A DNA stretch of 41,218 nucleotides from assembly GCA_028275505.1 (NCBI GenBank), contig JAPWUP010000014.1, positions 1-41,218 of the forward strand, given 5' to 3'. The notes beneath the pieces are model-generated. The model was not told the origin of the DNA, did not search any database, and saw nothing but the letters and a program-made list of their open reading frames with translations. The translations under genes and the position numbers were made by a program. Origin of the DNA: Bryobacteraceae bacterium. Its GTDB lineage: Bacteria > Acidobacteriota > Terriglobia > Bryobacterales > Bryobacteraceae. Shown one piece after another: positions 15,213 through 32,284 of the stretch (positions within the stretch are counted from its first letter, which is position 1; each line of letters starts with the position of its first letter).

Positions 15213-17816
15213 TCACTCGGCGCGGTCCAGCACTTCGCGCACCTTGCGCGCCAGCGTGTCCGGCAAGAAAGGTTTTTGCAGACAGACCACGCCGGCCGTG
15301 CTGACGCCGTGCCGGACTACCGCGTCCTCCGTGTAACCCGTCATATAGATCAGCTTGATGCCCGGACGCAAGGCCTGCAACTGCTCGGCCAGCTCGCGCC
15401 CATTGAGCTGCGGCATGACCACATCGGTAAGCAACAGATGGATCGGCCCGGGGTGTCGTTGCGCCAGGGCTAGGGCCTCAGGGCCGCTGCCGGCCTCCAG
15501 CACCTGATAGCCCTGCTGAACCAGCATCTGCCGAACCAGCTTGCGCACGCCCGGCTCGTCTTCTACTAAAAGAATAGTCTCCCCGGCGCCCGACACGCTC
15601 TCGACAACGGGCTCCTCGACCGGAGTCTCCACGGGCAGCGCAGCGCCAGCGTGTGGCAGATAAATCGTGAACTCCGTTCCTTTGCCCACCTCGCTCTGCA
15701 CCGTGATTTCACCGCCGTTCTGTTTGACGATGCCGTAGACGATGGAGAGGCCCAGCCCGGTCCCCTTGCCCGGCGCTTTGGTGGTGAAGAACGGCTCGAA
15801 AATATGGCTCAGGGTTTCAGCATCCATGCCGTGACCCGTATCGCGCACTCGCAGTACGGTCCAGTTCCCCGGGGGCGGGCCGCCGGGCTGGAAACGCTCC
15901 ACGGTCACGTTGGCGGTCTCGAGCGTTACCTGGCCGCCGCCGGGCATGGCGTCGCGCGAGTTGATGACCAGGTTCATGATGACCTGTTCCAGTTGCGTAG
16001 GATCGGCGCGCACCTTGCCCAAATCGGGCGCCAGGTGGGTGACCAGCTCAATGTCCTCGCCCACCATCCGGCGCAGCAGCCCCACCATATTGCGAATGAC
16101 ATCGTTCAGATCCACCAGCACTGGCTGTACGACCTGACGACGGCTGAACGCGAGCAGGCGGTCAGTCAGCGCGGACGCTCGTTCGGCAGCGGCGAGAATC
16201 TCCTGGGCATAGGCGCGCACAGGATGCTCCGGTGGCAGGTCCGCCAGCATCATGTGACTGTAAGCGCCAATGATGGTCAGCAGGTTGTTGAAATCGTGCG
16301 CGATGCCGCCGGCCAGCCGGCCGATCGCTTCGATTTTCTGGGACTGCCGCAGTTGCTCTTCCAGTCGCTTGCGTTCCGTGATTTCGCGGGCAATGCCCAG
16401 CACACCCACGGGTTTGCCGTCCTCGAAGATCAGGTGACTGCTCACCTCCACCAGCAACCGCCGCCCGTCCTTGGTGCGAATCGCCAGCTCGTAAATGGTG
16501 GAACCTTCGCCACCCAGTTTGCGGACGATCATCTGGCGCGCCAGTTCCAGGTGCTCAGGCGCCACGATATCCGCAATCGTCATCCCGAGCGCCTCTTCCC
16601 GCGTGTAGCCGGTGATCCGCTCCGCCGCCCGGTTGACGGAGGTGAACCGGCCTTGCAGGTCGTGCGTATAGACCATGTCGGTGGCGCTGTCGAACAGGTT
16701 GCGGTAGCGTTCCTCGCTGGAGCGCAGCGACTCCTCGGTTTTCTGGCGCTCCAGAATTTCAGCGCGCAGCGCCTCGTTGACGCGCGCCAGTTCTGCCGTG
16801 CGCTCGCGCACGCGCTCTTCCAGCAACTCATGGGCTCGCGCCAGTTCCTCCTGCGCCTGCTTGCGCTCGCGAATTTCACGCTCCAGTTCCCGGTTGATCG
16901 CCTCGGCCTCCAATGCGCGGCGCCTTGCCGCCTCGGCCCAGTGAATGGAGAGGCCGAGAAGCGTGGCCACCGCCAGGCCCAGGGCGGCCACGATGTAAGG
17001 CAGGACCAGCCAACGCTGAGTTAGCCAGTTCCGTTGCGGCCACACGCGAACCTTCCAAAGCCTTCCTCCTACCGGAACGGTAGCCTCGCTGACCCAGGCT
17101 TCCTCCTTCGCCCTGAGATCGCCCGGGCTGTGGTAAACGATGCGGTCTTGCTCGGTGATCTCGATCACGAAGCCCGCGGAGAGGCTTGGGGCCAGCACCT
17201 CGTTCAGGAGCAGTGCAGGATCAATCGCTGCCACGATCCATGCGCTTTGCCTGTCCTGCAACCTCACGGGGGCTGCAGTGAGGATCAACTGGGTTCCCGA
17301 CGGCAGGCTCACCACCCTGCTCAGGGAAGGCTTGCCGCTCAAAGTAGCGGACCGGATCACGTTTTCGAGCGGGTCCCGCAGCTGGCCGGCGAATTCTGCG
17401 AGCGGGTTGCCCGTCTTCGGCGTCATCCAGAGAGGTTTGCGCTCGCTGCCCACCCAGGCAAGCCAGGCAAGACTGACGAGGCCCGTGAGGTCCCGGAGAT
17501 ACAACTCGCTCTCCGTCTCCCAATCCCTGTAACTCAGAGTTCCTCGAGCCTGGATGAGACGCGCCAGTCGGTCCAACGCGGTGAGCCGGTCCTGCACCGC
17601 TGAGCTTGCATCCGCGGAAATCCGGTTAGCGGCAAGGTTCAGGTGACGGCGAAGCTGGCCCCGCTCAGTGACGTAGAGCTCATAAGCCACCCAGAGCGTG
17701 ATCAGAAAGACGAGGGATCCCACACCCCAAGGCATAAAGCGGCCGCCTCGGCGCATCGTGTTTTCTGCCCTCGGCCGCTCGCGTATTCGACGCCATGTCT
17801 CAACGAGCCAGCGCAT
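15213..17816 (-). CDS. Membrane hybrid sensor histidine kinase with PAS and C-terminal receiver domain
   Basis: The 867-residue protein has a first membrane span at about 30-50, an extracytoplasmic sensor region of about 210 residues, a second span at about 268-292, and a helical linker with [17 protein letters not shown] coiled coil. A PAS domain covers about 366-488, then the HisKA dimer with H507 in the GGIAHDFNN box, and the HATPase with N619 (NLVINSRDA), GHGMD and GTGLGLS glycine boxes. The C-terminal receiver domain (about 746-863) has D752/E751 and phosphoacceptor D798 in LLLTDVVMP, plus K848. So it phosphorylates itself and its own receiver; no separate regulator is adjacent. Methionines at 21 and 28 are alternative starts. 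Confidence 0.93.
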
Positions 17817-22479: not shown

Positions 22480-24675
22480 CTACGTCCGCGGCCCCTCCCG
22501 GCTCCGCGTCACTTCCATGGCCAGAGCGAGCAGCCGGCGCAGGTCCAGCTTGCCGGAGGGCAGCGGCGGCGGCATTTCTTCCACCAGATAAAAATTCTCC
22601 TTCTTGGGAATCCACAGCTTGGGCAGATCGGTACGCTGCAACCTGCGCCACAGCTCGGCCGGGGCGACATCGCGGCGCGTGTAGAGCACCACGAGCCGCT
22701 CGCCTCGCATCGGGTCCGGCGTGGCCATCACCACGCAGGGCGCCCCGTCCAGCGCTTCGCTGACGGCCTGTTCAATGCGCACGTGCGGCACCATCTCGCC
22801 GCCGATCTTGCTGAAGCGCGACAGGCGGTCCGCAATGCTCAGAAAGCCTTCTTCGTCCAGCGAGGCAATGTCGCCCGTCACATACCAGCCCTCGCGGAAG
22901 GCATCCCGCGTTCGCTCCGGCTGGTTCAGGTAACCCACCATGCAGCATGGGCCTTTCACCAGCAACAGACCCTCGCATCCCGCGGGCAGCGGCTCTCCGC
23001 TGGACGCGTCCACGATGCGCACGGCCACCCCGGGGATCGGTCGCCCGACCGTCCCGGGCTTGTATGTGCGCGTGCGCCGTTCCCCGGGCCGCAGGTCCGG
23101 CACGTTCACCGTCACCACCGGCGAGGTCTCGGTGACTCCGTAGCCCTCCAGGAGCGGCATGCCGAACTTCTCCTGAAAAGCCCGCGCCAGGGCCGGAGGC
23201 AGCTTCTCGCCGCCGGCGATCACGTAGCGCAGCGTGCGAAACTCCTCCGGTTCCACGCGCTTCAGGTAGTGCCCGAAGAACGTCGGCGTCGCCATCAGCA
23301 GCGTGCCCCGGTACCGCGCCGTCAGCTCGCCGATCGTTCGTGCATCCGTGGGATTGGGATGATAGACCGCCGGGTACCCATGCATGAGCGGGAAGCAGAG
23401 CGTACAGGTGAAGCCGAAAACGTGGAAAAACGGCAGCACGCCGATTACCCGGTCGTCTTCTTGCAGCCGGAAGATGCCGCGCAGCGACTCGATGTTGGAG
23501 ACGATATTGCGATGGGACAGCACGACGCCTTTCGGCTCGCCCGTGCTCCCGCTGGAGAAAACCACCGTGGCAACGTCATCCACGGACCGTCCTGCGTAGC
23601 GCAGAGCCAGCGCCCAACAGGGCGCCAGCCGGGCCATGAGGGCCACCGCAGCCTTGCGAAGGGCGCTGAATTCCGCGGTCACGTCCTCCAGCAGCACCGT
23701 TCCCGCGGGTGGCGCCAGCCCGGTCCTTTCCAGGAAGGCACGCGAACTGAGGATCGTCTTCAATCCGCACTGACGAATGGCCGCATCCACCGCCTCGCGC
23801 CCCGCGCTGAAGTTGAGGTTGACGGGCGCCTTTCCCGCGAGCAGAATGCCGAAGTTGGCCAGCGCCGCCCCCGCTGTGGCCGGCAGCATTATCCCAATCA
23901 TGGGTTCGGATCGCGCGTGCCGGCGCAGCCAGCCCGCCAGCAAGATCGCAGCGACCAGACAGCGGCCGAAGCTCAGCTCCCGTCCCGTGGAATCCGCGAT
24001 GCCGAGCCGCCCCCAGTTCCGTTTCGCGGACGAGAGGAACCGTCGTTCGATCCGATCTCGTGGACCGAAACGCAGGGCGGCCGTTTCAGCACCCAGCTCG
24101 AGGATCGCCTCCCGCACCTGGGTCGCAGTCACCGAAGGCGGCAGTGGGCGCCCGAAACGGATCGTGATCGGGATTCGCAACCGGGGCGGGCGCTCCACCA
24201 GGTGACCGTCCCGATAGCTCCACCAGGCGCCGCTCAGACCGTCCAGATAGACCGGCGTGACGCTGGCCCTGGCCGCCTCAGCCACCGCTTCCCAGCCGGA
24301 CCGAAACGCCAGCACGTGGCCGGTCGGCGTGATGTCGCCTTCGGGAAATAGTCCGACGATGCCGCCCGCACGCAGCTCCGCGAGCAGTTCCGCGAGCACC
24401 TGATCGTCGTTGTCGCCGGAGGCCACGATGGGCCTGAGCAGCCGAGCGGCGGCGCCCAGGCGCTCCACGCAATCGCGGCTCAGGACGAACCGCGTGCCAC
24501 CCGGCGCGCATAGCTTCAGCAGCAAGGGATCCAGATAGGAAACATGATTCGCAAGGAGAAGCGCGGGGCCGCGCGACGGGACGTTCTCCGCTCCCACTAC
24601 CCGCACGCGGTACAGCACACGCAAAAGCGATCTGAGCGCCAGTCGTCCGGCGCGGTCTGCAACGCCCCAGCCCAT
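22480..24675 (-). CDS. Bifunctional 1-acylglycerophosphate acyltransferase / acyl-ACP synthetase (Aas-like, lacking MFS domain)
   Basis: The 731-residue fusion has an N-terminal PlsC-type acyltransferase with NHVSYLD (N43, H44, D49) and FPEG (110-113). A C-terminal AMP-binding domain has the P-loop SSGSTGEPKG (374-383), GYGVTETSP (about 515), the STGD-like YVTGD and a C-terminal SGKLD with catalytic lysine near 716. This is the organisation of E. coli Aas, a 2-acylglycerophosphoethanolamine acyltransferase with acyl-ACP synthetase activity. The lysophospholipid transporter domain sometimes fused in other phyla is missing here. It would recycle fatty acids into membrane phospholipids at the inner membrane. 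It follows the deacetylase gene by 7 bases. Confidence 0.85.
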   Translation of the reverse strand: MGWGVADRAGRLALRSLLRVLYRVRVVGAENVPSRGPALLLANHVSYLDPLLLKLCAPGGTRFVLSRDCVERLGAAARLLRPIVASGDNDDQVLAELLAELRAGGIVGLFPEGDITPTGHVLAFRSGWEAVAEAARASVTPVYLDGLSGAWWSYRDGHLVERPPRLRIPITIRFGRPLPPSVTATQVREAILELGAETAALRFGPRDRIERRFLSSAKRNWGRLGIADSTGRELSFGRCLVAAILLAGWLRRHARSEPMIGIMLPATAGAALANFGILLAGKAPVNLNFSAGREAVDAAIRQCGLKTILSSRAFLERTGLAPPAGTVLLEDVTAEFSALRKAAVALMARLAPCWALALRYAGRSVDDVATVVFSSGSTGEPKGVVLSHRNIVSNIESLRGIFRLQEDDRVIGVLPFFHVFGFTCTLCFPLMHGYPAVYHPNPTDARTIGELTARYRGTLLMATPTFFGHYLKRVEPEEFRTLRYVIAGGEKLPPALARAFQEKFGMPLLEGYGVTETSPVVTVNVPDLRPGERRTRTYKPGTVGRPIPGVAVRIVDASSGEPLPAGCEGLLLVKGPCCMVGYLNQPERTRDAFREGWYVTGDIASLDEEGFLSIADRLSRFSKIGGEMVPHVRIEQAVSEALDGAPCVVMATPDPMRGERLVVLYTRRDVAPAELWRRLQRTDLPKLWIPKKENFYLVEEMPPPLPSGKLDLRRLLALAMEVTRSREGPRT

Positions 24676-24682
24676 AGACTGG

Positions 24683-25609
24683 TCAGCTCCGGCGGACCCG
24701 GTGCGCCGCGAGCACCTCCTGCCCGGCCTTGACGGTGTTGACGTGAATCGTAACGGTGTCGTCTACGTTCACCGCGTAGCCGCCCGCCAGGGTCACGAAC
24801 ACCGCGGCGCCATGATCCAGCGCTGCCTGGAAGACCAGCCGATCCCGCTCCTTCAATCCCTCCAAGGTCAGCGACAGCCCGCCCAGTTGGTCCAGCTCAT
24901 AAGGATCAGCGCCGGCGACATAGGCTACTAAGTCCGGACGGAAATCATCCAGAGCCTTCAGGTAAGCCTGGCTCAGCAACTCCAGGTATTCTTCATCGCC
25001 CGTCTCATCGGGCAGGTGGATATCAATGTCGGAGGGCGGCTTCAGGCTCGGGTAGTTATTGTACTGGTGAATCGAGATAGTAAACACGGACGGGTCGGCC
25101 CGGAAGATATAAGCCGTCCCGTTGCCTTGATGGACATCGCAATCCACCACCATGGCCCGGCGGATCAAACCGTCACGCTGCAACCGGCGCAGCGCCACCG
25201 CCACGTCGTGGATGGCGCAGAAGCCCTCGCCGTGATCCGGAAAGGCGTGATGAAATCCGCCGCTCAGATTGAACGCCACGCCGTCCTCTAAAGCAAGCCG
25301 GGCAGCCAGGATGCTCCCTCCCGTCGCCAGAAACACTGCCCGCACCATCTTGCGCGAGTAGGGAATCTCGAGCCGGAGGAGTTCCTGAAAGTCGAGAGTG
25401 CCCGTCTTGAGTCGCTGAATCCAGCCGGATTCGTGAACCAGCAGCACGTCTTCATCGCTGGCGGGCTCGGGCTGCACGAAGTCGTCCGGCGTGGCCAGTC
25501 CCTCCGCCAGCAGTCTTTCGCGCACCAGCCGGTATTTCTGCGAAGGGAAGACATGATCGCCCAGGTGCAAATCGTAATCGGGGTGATAGACGAGCTTGAA
25601 TCCCAGCAT
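24683..25609 (-). CDS. Histone deacetylase-family (AcuC-like, class IV-like) protein
   Basis: The 308-residue protein has the metal site of the deacetylase superfamily: the double histidine GGFHHAF (H120, H121), DCDVHQGNG (D158, H160) and GADPYE (D235). The catalytic tyrosine Y278 is in LAGGYAV. The overall motif spacing looks like class IV/HDAC11-like and AcuC-type proteins. They remove acetyl or other acyl groups from lysines or small amines; several bacterial members act on acetoin or polyamine pathways or on acetyl-CoA synthetase. The gene sits between phosphate acetyltransferase (8-base gap) and the acyltransferase fusion. Its stop-start spacing suggests cotranscription. Substrate unknown. 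Confidence 0.88.
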   Translation of the reverse strand: MLGFKLVYHPDYDLHLGDHVFPSQKYRLVRERLLAEGLATPDDFVQPEPASDEDVLLVHESGWIQRLKTGTLDFQELLRLEIPYSRKMVRAVFLATGGSILAARLALEDGVAFNLSGGFHHAFPDHGEGFCAIHDVAVALRRLQRDGLIRRAMVVDCDVHQGNGTAYIFRADPSVFTISIHQYNNYPSLKPPSDIDIHLPDETGDEEYLELLSQAYLKALDDFRPDLVAYVAGADPYELDQLGGLSLTLEGLKERDRLVFQAALDHGAAVFVTLAGGYAVNVDDTVTIHVNTVKAGQEVLAAHRVRRS

Positions 25610-25617
25610 GAGCCGCC

Positions 25618-26628
25618 TCAGGCCCTCGCCTGGCGCGCACGAGCGGCCTGGACGGCAGTGACCAGGGCCGTGTGCACGATGTCCTCGGTCGAGCAGCCCC
25701 TCGAAACGATATTAGCCGGACGGCTCGGGCCGTGCAGCACCACCGCCAGCAAGGCCGCTTCGCCCAGCCGCTCAACCAGCTTGTACCCGATGTTGGCCGA
25801 GTTCAGGTCGGGAAAAACCAGCGTGTTGGCCTGTCCCGCTACCAATGATCCCGGAGCCTTGGAAGCGCCTACCGCAGGCACGAGGGCGGCATCGGCCTGA
25901 AGCTCCCCGTCGACCAGGAGGTCGGGCGCCCGGACTTTCACGTAACGCAGGGCTTCCAGAACGCGGTCTACCTCGGGGTGGCGCGCGCTGCCCTTGGTCG
26001 AGAACGACAGCAGGGCCACGCGCGGTTCGGTCTCCAGAAGTTCGCGCGCAATCTCCGCGGCGGCGATCGCGATGTCGGCCAGCTCGCTCGCGCTGGGGCG
26101 GATGATGACGGCCGCGTCGGCGAACACCAACAAGCCCTGACGCCCATACGCGGGGTTCCGCACCGCCATCAGGTGCGCGCTGGTCAGCCGGCGCACGCCT
26201 TCACGCAACCCCAACGTGTGCAGGATGGCGCGCAGCGATTCCGCGGTCGTGTGTACGGCGCTGACCACCATGGCGTCTGCATCGCCCGCAGCCACCATGA
26301 GACCGGCAAAATACAGGCGGTGCGCCGCCTGCTCCCGGGCCTCCATTTCGAGCATGCCGTGCGAGCGGCGCCGTTCCCATAGCAGCCGGGCGTAGTGGTC
26401 CAGCCGCAGCGACTGGGCGGGATCAACGAAGTTAGCCGCCCCGCCTCCCGGTGCCGGCCGCCCGATCAGAACGGGTTCCACCAACCCCTCCGCCGCCAAA
26501 CGCGTCGCAGCGGCCTGTACCCGCGGATCGTCGCCCTCGGGAAAAACGATGCGCGGCCGCACGCCCAGCTCCCGCAGGCGCTCGCGCTGGCGTTTTAGGA
26601 AAGCCTCCGCGGATTCGGGGATCGGCAT
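25618..26628 (-). CDS. pta: Phosphate acetyl/butyryltransferase
   Basis: The sequence encodes a Pta-type enzyme with the N-terminal [11 protein letters not shown] motif, the middle [11 protein letters not shown] region, and the C-terminal [16 protein letters not shown] and [10 protein letters not shown]. It converts acetyl-CoA and phosphate to acetyl phosphate, or a related acyl group; the family member (acetyl versus butyryl) cannot be fixed here. The start is uncertain: ATG 26628 has AGAAGG 4 bases upstream and gives 336 residues; ATG 26649 gives 343 residues and lacks a good ribosome site. A still longer frame to 26745 is unlikely. The gene begins divergently from the flavoprotein gene at 26708, with a gap of 79 bases. 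A neighbouring acetate kinase gene is not visible. Confidence 0.9.
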
Positions 26629-26707
26629 GAAGCCTTCTATTGTACTCATGGCCGGCATACGCCCCCACTCGCATGCTCGCGCAAGCGCCTGCGTTATGCT
26701 TGGGCTG

Positions 26708-28009
26708 ATGCGTCTCGTGGTCATCGGAGGGGTGGCAGCGGGCATGAGCGCGGCTGCGCGCGCCCGCCGCGTGGATCGCTCCCTCGAAATCCTCGTGCTA
26801 GAGCGCGGACAGCATGTCTCCTGGGCGGCCTGCGGGTTGCCGTTCTACGTCAGCGGACGCGTGGCCTCGCTGGACGAACTCATCCTCCACACGCCGGACT
26901 ATTTCCGTCGCGAGCGCAACATTGACGTGCGCACAGGCGCGGAGGTCGTCGCGATTCAGCCGGCGCGGCGCCAGGTTGTCCTGCGGGGCGGCGAGCGGAT
27001 CAGCTACGACAAACTCGTGATCGCTTGCGGCGCCCGTCCCGTCCGCGAGCTGCCGGGCGCGGATCTGCCGCATGTGTTCACGCTGCACACCCTGGAGGAT
27101 GCCCGCCGTCTGCGCGAGTTCATCGAACAACGGCGTCCGCAGCGTGCCGTGGTTGTGGGCGCCGGTTACATCGGGTTGGAAGTTGCCGATGGGCTGGCCG
27201 AGCGCGGCCTATGCGTTACCGTTCTCGATGCGTCGCCGTACATTCTCGGCCGCCAGGGTCGCGAGCTGACCGAGATCGTCACGCGTCATCTGGGGGCGCG
27301 AGGGATTCAATTCCGTCTGGGAACGCGCGTCTCGGCGATCCAGGCCGAGGGAGTGGAAGGAACGCCCGCCGATTTAATCGTGCTGGCGACCGGGGTCCGC
27401 CCCAACGTCGAGCTGGCCGCCGAGGCAGGCATCGAGCTGGGACGTCACGGCGCGATTCGCGTGAACGAACGCATGGAAACCAACCTCGCCGGTGTTTACG
27501 CTGCCGGTGATTGCGCCGAGACCGTTCACGTCGTGACGGGTGCGCCCGTCTACATTCCTCTCGGAACCACGGCGAACAAGATGGGACGCGTGGCAGGCGC
27601 CAACGCGGCGGGCCGCCGCGAACGCTTCCCGGGCGTCGCCGGCACGCTCATTGTCGCCTTGCGAGACCTCGCGGTGGCCATGACCGGCTTGTCCTCGACC
27701 GAGGCGCGCCAGGCCGGCTTTTCCCCCGTTTCCGTACGCATCGAAGCGCCGGATCGCTCGCGTTACATGGGCAGCGATCCCACTTGGGTCGAACTGGTGG
27801 CGGACCGCAACACGACTCGTCTTCTCGGCGGCAGCGTGATCGGCAAGCGCGGCGTGCCCGGCCGCATCAACGTCCTCGCCGCCGCAATCACCGCAGGAAT
27901 GACGACCGAACAGTTTGCCCAGTTGGATCTCGCTTACACTCCACCGGTGGCGCCGGTGTGGGACCCTCTGTTGGTCGCCGCCAACCAGTTACGCCGCGCG
28001 CTGGAATGA
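26708..28009 (+). CDS. CoA-disulfide reductase-like FAD/NAD(P)-dependent oxidoreductase
   Basis: The 433-residue flavoprotein has an FAD-binding motif at the N-terminus ([13 protein letters not shown]) and a single active-site cysteine in [10 protein letters not shown], typical of CoA-disulfide reductases, water-forming NADH oxidases and NADH peroxidases. An NAD-binding [11 protein letters not shown] segment is present, and the FAD-contacting [10 protein letters not shown] follows. There is no C-terminal rhodanese domain, which some relatives have. The ATG at 26708 is used because the glycine motif follows it directly; an in-frame ATG at 26696 is an alternative. It probably keeps low-molecular thiols or NADH oxidised/reduced state balanced. 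Confidence 0.87.
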
Positions 28010-29288: not shown

Positions 29289-29316
29289 GAAAAGGGGCGC
29301 GCAAGCGCCCCTTTTC
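29289..29316. terminator. Bidirectional rho-independent terminator with GNRA tetraloop
   Basis: AAAAGGGGCGC pairs with GCGCCCCTTTT (29290-29300 with 29305-29315) around a GCAA tetraloop (29301-29304). The 3' run of T on the plus strand is complemented by the A run at the 5' side, so both the plus-strand nuoI and the minus-strand AAA+ gene could end here. It lies in the 256-base convergent gap (29096-29351), which shows no other element. Confidence 0.8.
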
Positions 29317-29351: not shown

Positions 29352-30782
29352 TCAGGCGCAGGCCTCGCAAGGCTGATTCAGGCGGGCGCGCAGCAGGCTG
29401 ACCATGTCGGCTGCGCGGAAGGGCTTGCGCAGAACCGCGAAGTCGTACTCTTCGCAAACCGCCTCTTCCTCGGGCGCCAGTTCCATCCCGGTCATGATAA
29501 TGATCGGCGCGTGCGCATCGCGGCGCCGTAGCTCGACCGCCAGCTCGAGGCCGTTGCCGTCGGGCAGCCGGTAATCCAGCAAAGCCGCGTCCGGCATGCG
29601 TTCACCTATTTCCTTGTAAGCCTGCCGGGCCGATTCCGCCGCCAGCAGTTGCCAGCCCGCTTGCCCCATACACGTCTCCAGGTAGCGGAGCAACTCGCGG
29701 TTATCTTCCACCAGCAAGACGACCGGCGCCTGCGCAGGCGTCTCTTCGGCCGCGCTGGCCCGCAAGGCAAGACCCTGGCCGTCGTCGCCCACCAACACAT
29801 GCACCTGACCGCCACGAGGAACGCCGCCTTCGGCCACCAGCGCCGCCAAAGGCTGGGTCAGGTACCGGTGAACCGTCCGGCGCAACTCCCGTGCCCCGTA
29901 CTCTGCACTGGTGCCCACGCGTAACAGGAATTCGCGGGCCTGCTCGGAAACCTGGATGCGAAAGCGGTTCTCGCCCAGCCGCGTGTCCACGAGCCTTTGC
30001 AAGTCCGCAATCTGTTGGTCGAGAATAGCGGCCAGCGAGGCCGCATCCAGGGGCCGGTATGTGATGACGGCGTCAATGCGGTTGACGAACTCCGGCGAGA
30101 AGCGACGCCGCACCGCGTGCAACCCGATCGCTTCGAGCTTGCCGGCCAGATCCGTGCGCGGCGCGTCCGCGCGGAAACCGAAATCCGGCCGCAGCTCCTT
30201 CATCATTTCCCGCGCCCCGAGATTGCTGGTCAGGAAGATCAGGCTGTTCTCGAAATTGACCGTCGTGTTGTCTCCCAGGCGCAGGGTGGCGCGATCCAGA
30301 ACGCCCAGCAGCAGGCGCGTCAACGAGGGCGCCGCCTTTTCGATTTCGTCGAAGAGCACGAGCGAAAGAGCGCAACGCTCGCTGGTGACGGCGTTCAGCT
30401 TCTGCTGCGTGAGCATGGGGACCGTTTCACGGTGGCCGAGGTAACCGGGCGGAGCCCCGATCAGCTTGGCCACCTCGTGGTCCATCTGGTATTCCCCGCA
30501 GTCAATTTTGAGCAGGCATTTCTCCGAGCCGTGCAGCACCTCGGCCAGCGCTTCGACCGTGCGGGTCTTGCCCGTGCCCGTCGGCCCGAGCAACAGGAAT
30601 ACCCCGGCGGGACGCCCCTCCGGGGCAAGTCCGGCCTGGAACATCTGCACGTAGGGAATGATCTGTCGGATCGCATCCGGCTGACCGACGAGGCGCCGCC
30701 CCAGTTGCGCGGCCAGTTCGGTTGCCGGCTCCACGGCGGGTTTCCGCGATCGCGTGGCGCTCCCCGCGCTTTTCAAAACCAC
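29352..30782 (-). CDS. ClpB/ClpA-type AAA+ ATPase fused to a C-terminal response-regulator receiver domain
   Basis: From GTG 30782 the protein has 476 residues. Residues of about 20-340 form one AAA+ module like the second ring of ClpB: Walker A GPTGTGKT (66-73), a pore-loop-like GAPPGYLGH (109-117, histidine where ClpB usually has tyrosine), Walker B LVLFDE (141-146), sensor 1 TSN (185-187), an RFSPEFVNRID arginine-finger region and GARELRR sensor 2 (296-302). There is no Clp N-domain, first ring or middle domain. A complete receiver domain follows (about 354-465) with ED at 359-360, D403 in LLDYRLPDG, and K453 in LRKPF. The GTG has GAGGGGA upstream; the TTG at 30803 falls in a TATAAT element and is rejected. 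A phospho-controlled unfoldase is the obvious model. Confidence 0.9.
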   Translation of the reverse strand: MVLKSAGSATRSRKPAVEPATELAAQLGRRLVGQPDAIRQIIPYVQMFQAGLAPEGRPAGVFLLLGPTGTGKTRTVEALAEVLHGSEKCLLKIDCGEYQMDHEVAKLIGAPPGYLGHRETVPMLTQQKLNAVTSERCALSLVLFDEIEKAAPSLTRLLLGVLDRATLRLGDNTTVNFENSLIFLTSNLGAREMMKELRPDFGFRADAPRTDLAGKLEAIGLHAVRRRFSPEFVNRIDAVITYRPLDAASLAAILDQQIADLQRLVDTRLGENRFRIQVSEQAREFLLRVGTSAEYGARELRRTVHRYLTQPLAALVAEGGVPRGGQVHVLVGDDGQGLALRASAAEETPAQAPVVLLVEDNRELLRYLETCMGQAGWQLLAAESARQAYKEIGERMPDAALLDYRLPDGNGLELAVELRRRDAHAPIIIMTGMELAPEEEAVCEEYDFAVLRKPFRAADMVSLLRARLNQPCEACA

Positions 30783-30802
30783 GGATATTCCCCTCGCTGG
30801 CA

Positions 30803-30808
30803 ATTATA
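30803..30808 (-). promoter_or_regulatory. Candidate -10 element (TATAAT) for the AAA+-receiver gene
   Basis: A perfect TATAAT on the minus strand (30808-30803) lies 21 bases upstream of the GTG at 30782, so the leader would be only about 14 bases and would contain the GAGGGGA ribosome site. No good -35 hexamer is visible 16-18 bases upstream, so an activator or an alternative factor may be involved. The rest of the 96-base gap to wecB shows nothing else. Confidence 0.45.
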
Positions 30809-30878: not shown

Positions 30879-32006
30879 TTATCCGACGAAAAATGAGCGG
30901 ATTGCATCCGCAATGCGGCGGCTGGCATGACCATCACCGTACGGATTGTGAACGCGGGCCATGCGTTCGTACTCCTGCCGGTCTTCCAGCAGCCGCACCG
31001 CTTCCTCCACGATGCGCCGCGTCTGGGTGCCCACCAGCTTCACCGAGCCTGCCTCCACGCCCTCGGGCCGCTCCGTATTCTCGCGCAGCACCAGAATCGG
31101 CTTGCCCAGCGACGGGCCTTCCTCCTGAATCCCGCCGGAGTCGGTCAGCACCAGCCACGCCCGACGCATCAAATCCACAAAAGGCACGTATTCGAGCGGC
31201 TCGATCAGGTGGATGTTCGGGATCCGGGCCAGCAATTGTCTCACCGGGGCCTGCACGTTGGGGTTGGGATGCACCGGATAAACGATTTCCACGTCATCCC
31301 GCGCCGCCAGTTCAGCCAGCGCCGCGCAAATCCGCCGGAAACCTTCGCCGAAGCTCTCCCGCCGGTGCGCGGTCACCAGGATCAGTTTGCGCGAGCCATC
31401 CAACTGCGGCCAGGGGCGGCTGGGAAGGAGGCCTTGTTCCAGGCGATCCCTTACCCACAGCACAGCGTCAATGCCCGGATTGCCGGTCACGGCGATACGG
31501 GCTTCCGGTACCCCCTCGCGCAACAGGTTCTCGGCCGCCCATCGGGTCGCAGCGAAATGCAGGGTCGCCAGCCGGCTCGTCAGCACCCGGTTCATCTCCT
31601 CGGGGAAGGGCTGTTGGGGATCCCAAGTACGCAACCCCGCCTCCACGTGCCCCACGGGAATTCGGTGGTAGAAAGCCGCCAGTGCACCGCAAAGCGTGGT
31701 TGTGGTGTCGCCTTGGACGAGGACCATGTCGGGACGGGCATCCTGCAGAACCGCCTCCAGGCCTGCGATCACACGCGCGGTCGTCTCAGCCAGGGTCTGA
31801 CCCGGTCGCATCAGGTCCAGATCCCAGTCTGGAGCGACCCCGAACACGTCTAGCACCTGATCGAGCAGTTCGCGATGCTGCGCCGTCGCGCACAGTTGGA
31901 CTGCAAACTCGGAACGTCGTTGCAGTTCGAGGAAGACAGGGCAGAGCTTGATGGCCTCCGGTCGCGTGCCTACGACCACGAGGAGGCGTCTGCGGCGGGT
32001 CGGCAC
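30879..32006 (-). CDS. wecB: UDP-N-acetylglucosamine 2-epimerase (non-hydrolysing)
   Basis: The 375-residue protein has the family start VVVGTRPEAIKL and the central VQGDTTTTL, GHVEAGLRT and FPEEMNR motifs. Later come VTAHRRES, VYPVHPNPNV and TDSGGIQEE, which bind UDP-GlcNAc in the non-hydrolysing epimerase. It interconverts UDP-GlcNAc and UDP-ManNAc for surface polysaccharides. The start is a GTG at 32006, with GAGGG about 9 bases upstream. It stands alone here, with no other polysaccharide gene around it. Confidence 0.95.
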   Translation of the reverse strand: MPTRRRRLLVVVGTRPEAIKLCPVFLELQRRSEFAVQLCATAQHRELLDQVLDVFGVAPDWDLDLMRPGQTLAETTARVIAGLEAVLQDARPDMVLVQGDTTTTLCGALAAFYHRIPVGHVEAGLRTWDPQQPFPEEMNRVLTSRLATLHFAATRWAAENLLREGVPEARIAVTGNPGIDAVLWVRDRLEQGLLPSRPWPQLDGSRKLILVTAHRRESFGEGFRRICAALAELAARDDVEIVYPVHPNPNVQAPVRQLLARIPNIHLIEPLEYVPFVDLMRRAWLVLTDSGGIQEEGPSLGKPILVLRENTERPEGVEAGSVKLVGTQTRRIVEEAVRLLEDRQEYERMARVHNPYGDGHASRRIADAIRSFFVG

Positions 32007-32065: not shown

Positions 32066-32284
32066 TCACTTGTGCCGGTAAACGATGCGGCCCTTGGTGA
32101 GGTCGTAGGGCGACAGCTCTACGGTGACGCGGTCGCCCGCCAGGACGCGGATGCGGTTGCGCCGCAGCTTGCCGGCCAGGTGGGCCAGCACCTTCCGGTC
32201 CTCGTCAATTTGGACACTGAAAAGGCCGCTCGGGAATTTCTCGACGACTACGCCTTGTACCTCGATCGAATCCTCTTTGCTCAT
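32066..32284 (-). CDS. infA: Translation initiation factor IF-1
   Basis: The 72-residue OB-fold protein matches IF-1 from end to end, including [20 protein letters not shown] and [13 protein letters not shown]. It binds the 30S A site during initiation. AGGAGG lies 3 bases before the ATG. The usual ribosomal protein operon partners (secY, rpmJ, rpsM) are absent, so this is a separate transcription unit with its own promoter, and possibly a second infA copy in the genome. Confidence 0.97.

Follow-up and report, generated by a model that had tools for sequence, protein, structure and literature searches.

The fusion gene and its product

The window, a stretch of 41,218 nucleotides from the genome of a soil bacterium of the Bryobacteraceae, encodes on its reverse strand a protein of 476 residues in which a Clp-type AAA+ ATPase and a response-regulator receiver domain (REC) share one chain. 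The features that matter here are the following.

29352..30782 (-): AAA+-REC fusion gene, 476 aa, GTG start, one uninterrupted frame
30789..30795 (-): Shine-Dalgarno-like GAGGGGA, read from the sequence, its GAGGGG 7 bases 5' of the GTG
29763..30725 (-): single ClpA/B/C-type AAA+ module with D2-small domain, residues 20-340 (Pfam AAA_2, ClpB_D2-small; PDB matches)
30564..30587 (-): Walker A, GPTGTGKT, residues 66-73 (alignment)
30432..30446 (-): pore loop GYLGH, residues 113-117, tyrosine kept (alignment)
30345..30362 (-): Walker B, LVLFDE, residues 141-146 (alignment)
30174..30182 (-): FGF, residues 201-203, tripeptide of the ClpP-docking type in a variable loop (alignment of 81 sequences)
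30078..30080 (-): arginine finger R235 (conservation; role by homology)
29889..29891 (-): sensor 2 arginine R298 (conservation; role by homology)
29727..29762 (-): variable inter-domain linker, residues ~341-352 (pairwise divergence)
29373..29723 (-): receiver domain, residues 354-470 (Pfam Response_reg)
29574..29576 (-): phosphoacceptor D403, numbered from the GTG (35 of 35 REC-bearing sequences)
29290..29311 (-): hairpin and T run resembling an intrinsic terminator, 3' of the fusion gene, read from sequence only
30879..32006 (-): wecB (UDP-GlcNAc 2-epimerase), upstream neighbour common to relatives (Pfam Epimerase_2; synteny)
32066..32284 (-): infA (IF-1), upstream neighbour common to relatives (Pfam eIF-1a / IF-1; synteny)

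An alternative TTG start is also open at 30803. Three Pfam domains score above their curated cut-offs: AAA_2 (7.6e-35), ClpB_D2-small (5.6e-15) and Response_reg (2.8e-17). With 476 residues and one AAA+ module, the protein differs from ClpC in having no Clp N-domain, D1 ring or middle domain; Clp_N and a second AAA+ module were not found by Pfam at E values up to 1. Assignment to ClpX is not supported either: Pfam detects no zinc domain, and TIGR00382 is absent from the best 25 NCBIfam matches. The NCBIfam models for ClpB, ClpA and ClpV match only by their C-terminal parts and far below cut-off; the ClpB model TIGR03346 reaches 222 bits over its last third against a cut-off of 1232, and the protein carries a tripeptide loop. 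The nearest solved sequences are ClpB D2 domains, with ClpC next. A Foldseek search with the predicted model likewise places ClpB D2 at the top, and ClpC from ClpC-ClpP complexes (9a66, 9rai, 8xon) follows close behind. The AlphaFold model, built from 33 sequences, is a monomer and carries no information on a hexamer; its mean pLDDT is 84.1 and its pTM 0.66, with both domains confident. Most ten-residue blocks of the AAA+ module have pLDDT values of 79-97, and the block holding the pore loop (111-120) has 60.

Conservation was assessed in a set of 35 REC-bearing sequences (window included), 25 receiver-less relatives and 21 paralogous sequences, obtained after removal of duplicates and short matches. 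Sequences with identical AAA+ segments and matches below 200 residues were dropped, which removes a fragment reaching the receiver in genome G017. Eight duplicates, the double-ring sequences L003, L004 and L043 and the truncated L038 were left out of the first alignment, and the tree was computed without L038 and L004. Because 35 distinct sequences share the same domain order, a frameshift between the domains, or a chimeric assembly, is excluded. A reading of the window from its letters alone (the sequence-only reading) had named such a frameshift as its refutation and a database search for the domain order as its check. The fusion is thus confirmed as real: a Clp-type AAA+ module, a short variable linker and a complete receiver in a single chain lacking N-domain, first ring and middle domain, as that reading had it.

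The AAA+ motor

The residues expected of unfoldases that partner ClpP are present: Walker, sensor, arginine-finger and pore-tyrosine positions are all of the Clp type. K72 of Walker A, D145 and E146 of Walker B, N187, R235, R298 and the pore tyrosine Y114 are invariant in all 35 REC-bearing sequences, that of the window included. We take R235 to be the arginine finger and R298 the sensor 2 residue, by homology. The one deviation found is T73, which is alanine in L015 (GPTGTGKA for GPTGTGKT). The Walker and sensor motifs had been described as intact, and so they are. The same reading held that GYLGH replaces the usual pore tyrosine, which is incorrect: GYLG corresponds to the GYVG loop. The pentapeptide aligns with the GYVGY of ClpB and ClpC from the same genome and differs from it only by L for V and H for the second Y. 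All receiver-less (25) and paralogous (21) sequences have GYLGH, as do 33 of the 35 REC-bearing ones; the other two have GYVGH. To judge from the alignment, the pore-loop histidine marks the whole single-ring group.

The receiver domain and linker

The receiver is complete as a response regulator: the acidic pair, the phosphoacceptor aspartate, the T/S position and the lysine are all there. All 35 REC-bearing sequences keep D360, D403, K453 and P454 and have D or E at position 359; at position 431, 32 of them have T or S and the other three A, C or V. The earlier assignment of the phosphoacceptor to D403 is correct when numbered from the GTG. Both domains are much better conserved than the segment that joins them. 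Between the window and the same-genus relative L046, identity is 82% in the AAA+ module and 77% in the receiver, as against 27% in the linker (15 codons). For the AAA+ module dN is 0.123 and dS 1.134 (dN/dS ~0.11), and for the receiver dN is 0.144 and dS 1.017 (dN/dS ~0.14); synonymous changes are near saturation, so that both ratios are rough. The receiver half has 22 other matches in the window's genome.

A conserved tripeptide in a variable loop

At residues 201-203 a hydrophobic residue is followed by G and then F or L in 81 of 81 single-ring sequences (35 REC-bearing, 25 receiver-less, 21 paralogous). G202 never varies; at position 203, 80 sequences have F and one has L. The columns beside it, 204-214, have entropies of 2.6 to 3.6 bits in the same alignment. 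In the model pLDDT falls below 50 at residues 201-206; such low values here and in the pore loop would be as expected of mobile loops.

According to extracts of PMC10149685, LGF loops dock into ClpP, are missing from ClpB and discriminate ClpB from ClpC. At the same alignment place MGF stands in the ClpC of the window's genome, while neither ClpB nor ClpV (TssH) of that genome shows an equivalent triplet. These three proteins were named independently of the loop: contig C90 encodes ClpB (1428 bits against an NCBIfam cut-off of 1232) and C223 ClpV (1303 against 885), and the C88 protein, although above no NCBIfam cut-off, has solved ClpC as its best match and possesses Clp_N and two AAA+ modules.

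The triplet is less orthodox in its first residue. REC-bearing sequences have FGF in 31 cases, LGF in two, and VGF and IGF in one each; receiver-less relatives have FGF (16), MGF (6), IGF, LGF and FGL (1 each); and paralogues have LGF (15), MGF (4) and IGF (2). Phenylalanine thus comes first in 31 of 35 and 17 of 25 sequences of the former two groups. The ClpP-loop motif is given in PMC8745299 as (L/I/V)-G-(F/L). A strict L, I or V opens the triplet in only four of the 35 REC-bearing sequences, and the protein of the window has F. Among 23 ClpX proteins, taken from the window's genome and from related genomes, the corresponding stretch reads VGF (12), IGF (7), MGF (3) or LGF (1), and F comes first in none. 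As far as these alignments indicate, F in first place is unusual relative both to the published motif and to every ClpX control.

Relatives, distribution and history

The window's genome (G000; 4.66 Mb, 392 contigs) holds one copy of the fusion and, on contig C36, a receiver-less paralogue at 50% identity. Its other Clp ATPases are the ClpC, ClpB and ClpV/TssH proteins described above and a ClpX on C347. The ClpV/TssH gene (L167:394-3255, G000:C223), being above its NCBIfam cut-off, hints at a type VI secretion system. A scan of genome contigs for the fusion gene returned 36 loci; it used exact peptide patterns, and so finds close relatives only. At E 1e-60, full REC-bearing matches occur in 15 of the 37 genomes of the window's family, its own included, and the G017 fragment represents a sixteenth; the 24 genomes sampled from the order and class outside this family have none. 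Sampling the phylum evenly (396 genomes) gave six matches at E 1e-98. One is the window's own genome, two are family members without a receiver, and three, each with the receiver, represent genera of other families. Carriage on plasmids was considered and rejected, as 72,556 plasmid records gave no match at E 1e-60.

The 25 receiver-less relatives belong to the same clade as the fusion, mostly occupy the same infA-wecB locus and keep the motor motifs; therefore the core function does not need the receiver. At least five genomes (G005, G010, G016, G029 and G032) encode both forms. The tree requires three changes of REC label, which may reflect gain or loss of the receiver, and a single origin is still conceivable. 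Recent loss was rejected: behind the stops of 26 receiver-less sequences, L038 included, a receiver profile run over same-strand frames found no remnant (best E 2) within up to 900 bases, of which L036 and L112 offered only 94 and 280.

Two records lie outside the expected taxonomy. L018, from a record titled Nevskia soli (Pseudomonadota), falls inside the Bryobacterales clade with infA-wecB upstream and is probably a contaminant contig. In a Gemmatimonadetes metagenome-assembled genome, the fusion at L029:5833-7371 groups with the REC-bearing sequences of Acidobacteriota, by transfer or mis-binning.

The paralogues (L088-L107, L114) form a second single-ring Clp-type family with a GYLGH pore and an LGF, MGF or IGF loop. 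It occurs in most genomes of the window's family and also, within the order and class, in some other families; none of the 21 sequences compared has a receiver. A short-chain-dehydrogenase-like gene, named from sequence alone, adjoins it at nine of 21 loci. In L096 (G005:C157) the paralogue closes an open frame of 1015 aa, which may be a longer fusion or just a long open frame. This second clade suggests that Acidobacteriota have a broader set of single-ring Clp-type unfoldases, for which none of the NCBIfam models listed comes up to its cut-off.

Genomic context and possible partners

The genes infA and/or wecB lie upstream in at least 16 of 35 REC-bearing, at least 24 of 25 receiver-less and 0 of 21 paralogous cases, many of the stretches being short. 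Neither is present in 11 of the 19 REC-bearing cases that have 1.5 kb or more upstream. The two forms are therefore often, not always, at the same locus. Neither gene suggests a function for the fusion protein. Elsewhere in the window (22480-26745, -), an acyltransferase/AMP-binding protein, a histone-deacetylase-family protein and a phosphate acetyl/butyryltransferase are encoded in a row, a possible acyl-group module.

Among ten window proteins scanned with Pfam, the sole two-component protein is a hybrid kinase (15213-17816, -) some 11.5 kb from the fusion, in keeping with the earlier remark that such a kinase is present and not adjacent. A REC domain is encoded within 3 kb of 4 of 35 REC-bearing, 0 of 25 receiver-less and 2 of 21 paralogous loci, so that such neighbours are not enriched; the test is weak, with 3 kb present on both sides at only 14, 7 and 0 loci, respectively. 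This count misses kinases without a REC domain, and it also missed a response regulator beside L019. In relatives, kinases adjoin the gene in L110/L030 and L023, which serve as leads only, and other response regulators adjoin it in L028 and L019. With the window's kinase so distant and REC-domain neighbours not enriched, an adjacent kinase as partner was rejected.

A single ClpP of the window's genome matches strongly (275 bits); the other match, in a 732-aa frame, scores only 29 bits. ClpP is encoded in 22 of 23 genomes tested. No clpP was noticed beside the fusion gene in the loci inspected, an inspection that was unsystematic. ClpX is below its family cut-off or missing in seven of 25 family genomes (G003, G005, G007, G008, G011, G017 and G036). 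Replacement of ClpX by the fusion was considered and set aside: these seven assemblies all consist of ~250 or more contigs, not all carry the fusion, and assembly gaps are the likely cause.

A proposed receiver-gated unfoldase

The best explanation, which we place at close to an even chance, is a single-ring unfoldase resembling ClpC and ClpX that hands substrates to the cell's ClpP and is switched through phosphorylation of its C-terminal receiver. The steps would be as follows. (i) Fusion chains would assemble into a hexamer. (ii) The six FGF loops of the ring would dock into ClpP. (iii) An unlinked histidine kinase would phosphorylate D403. (iv) The phosphorylated receiver would alter assembly of the ring, or access of ClpP or substrate to it. 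By analogy with NtrC-type receivers, which gate the assembly of AAA+ rings, ring assembly would be the step most likely to be controlled. ClpC of ClpC-ClpP complexes among the fold matches and the ClpP gene in the genome speak for a ClpP partner; the F-first triplet and the first rank of ClpB D2 in both sequence and fold searches speak against it. The lack of an adjacent kinase in the window, two-component neighbours that are not enriched, and the 25 relatives without a receiver also count against the explanation, as does the fact that no clpP was noticed beside the gene in the loci inspected.

The ClpB D2 matches, together with a triplet unlike the textbook motif and unlike any of the 23 ClpX loops, would also fit an unfoldase or disassembly machine that works independently of ClpP under phosphorylation control, its FGF loop having another partner or role. 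This alternative is a serious one, if doubtful. The N-domain, first ring and middle domain are tied to disaggregation of the DnaK type, and the fusion has none of the three; moreover, all 81 sequences retain the tripeptide although the rest of the loop varies freely, and neither ClpB nor ClpV of the genome has it. A ClpP partner is favoured over a ClpB-like role because the hydrophobic-G-F/L loop is conserved, as in ClpC, and missing from ClpB. The comparison with a ClpB ring made in the sequence-only reading is for this reason probably wrong. Its prediction of an unfoldase or disassembly machine switched by phosphorylation holds in part: the switch remains a natural prediction from the conserved fusion, and disassembly in the style of ClpB is weakened by the loop.

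The receiver might instead serve for docking or delivery, as a fused adaptor that brings substrates or a partner to the ring and not as an allosteric switch. CpdR is a receiver protein that serves as a ClpXP adaptor. RssB is another receiver-bearing adaptor of ClpXP, on the evidence of extracts from PMC7226468. The short, variable linker and the retention of motor motifs in the receiver-less relatives, mostly at the same locus, would suit such a module. Pure docking would not need a phosphorylation site, however, and D360, D403 and K453 are conserved in 35 of 35 sequences; this alternative is improbable. Least credible of all is a receiver that acts as a sink or relay for phosphate, carried along by a housekeeping unfoldase. 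The orphan position of the gene and the 22 other receiver-half matches in the genome are compatible with it, but unlinked receivers could do the same job, and the fusion is to one specific AAA+ family and is conserved over many genera.

Taken further, the preferred reading of a receiver-switched ClpP partner would describe a response regulator with a protease motor as its output: the phosphorylated receiver would directly gate the assembly of a single-ring unfoldase, or its docking to ClpP. We put this forward tentatively, as a possibility that falls somewhat short of even. If true, it would mean two-component control of protein degradation with neither a separate adaptor nor transcription. 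Relatives with and without the receiver at the same locus offer a ready comparison of what the receiver contributes.

Comparison with known systems

The fusion resembles ClpC and ClpX in its AAA+ motifs, in its pore loop of the GYVG type (ClpC) and in a hydrophobic-G-F loop placed as in the ClpC of its own genome. It differs in being single-ringed, without N-domain, zinc domain or middle domain, and in having a C-terminal receiver and an F-first loop. The D2 ring of ClpB and Hsp104 provides its nearest solved sequences and folds; unlike those proteins, it has no N-domain, D1 or middle domain, and it possesses a receiver and the tripeptide loop that ClpB lacks. ClpI of Actinomycetota is likewise a non-standard Clp class with an LGF-bearing subtype, but has N-terminal and middle domains, as described in extracts of PMC10149685; the term 'response regulator' is absent from the main text of that paper. 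The main text of PMC4558063 contains none of the words AAA, Clp, ATPase and chaperone. Among the papers listed in searches of the open literature, no title or abstract opening describes the fusion of a receiver with a Clp-type unfoldase.

Control by receivers is established for AAA+ rings that open promoters and, with the receiver as a separate adaptor, for ClpXP. NtrC-type proteins carry an N-terminal receiver, a sigma-54-type AAA+ domain with GAFTGA, and a DNA-binding domain. In NtrC1 and LuxO, as in the fusion, receiver and AAA+ ring belong to one chain; phosphorylation gates the ring, and NtrC-type receivers block or drive AAA+ oligomerisation, according to PMC4878744. The fusion differs from them in its C-terminal receiver and Clp-type AAA+ module. 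It has no GAFTGA; Pfam Sigma54_activat does exceed its cut-off, but scores only 28.4 bits against 120.8 for AAA_2. RssB-ClpXP and CpdR-ClpXP are similar in that a receiver protein controls an AAA+ protease. Their receiver is a separate adaptor protein, whereas that of the fusion is part of the motor chain. Between them, the NtrC-type and RssB cases are precedents for each part of the proposal, but not within a single Clp chain. Were a receiver built into a Clp-type motor, signal-gated proteolysis would become a one-protein device.
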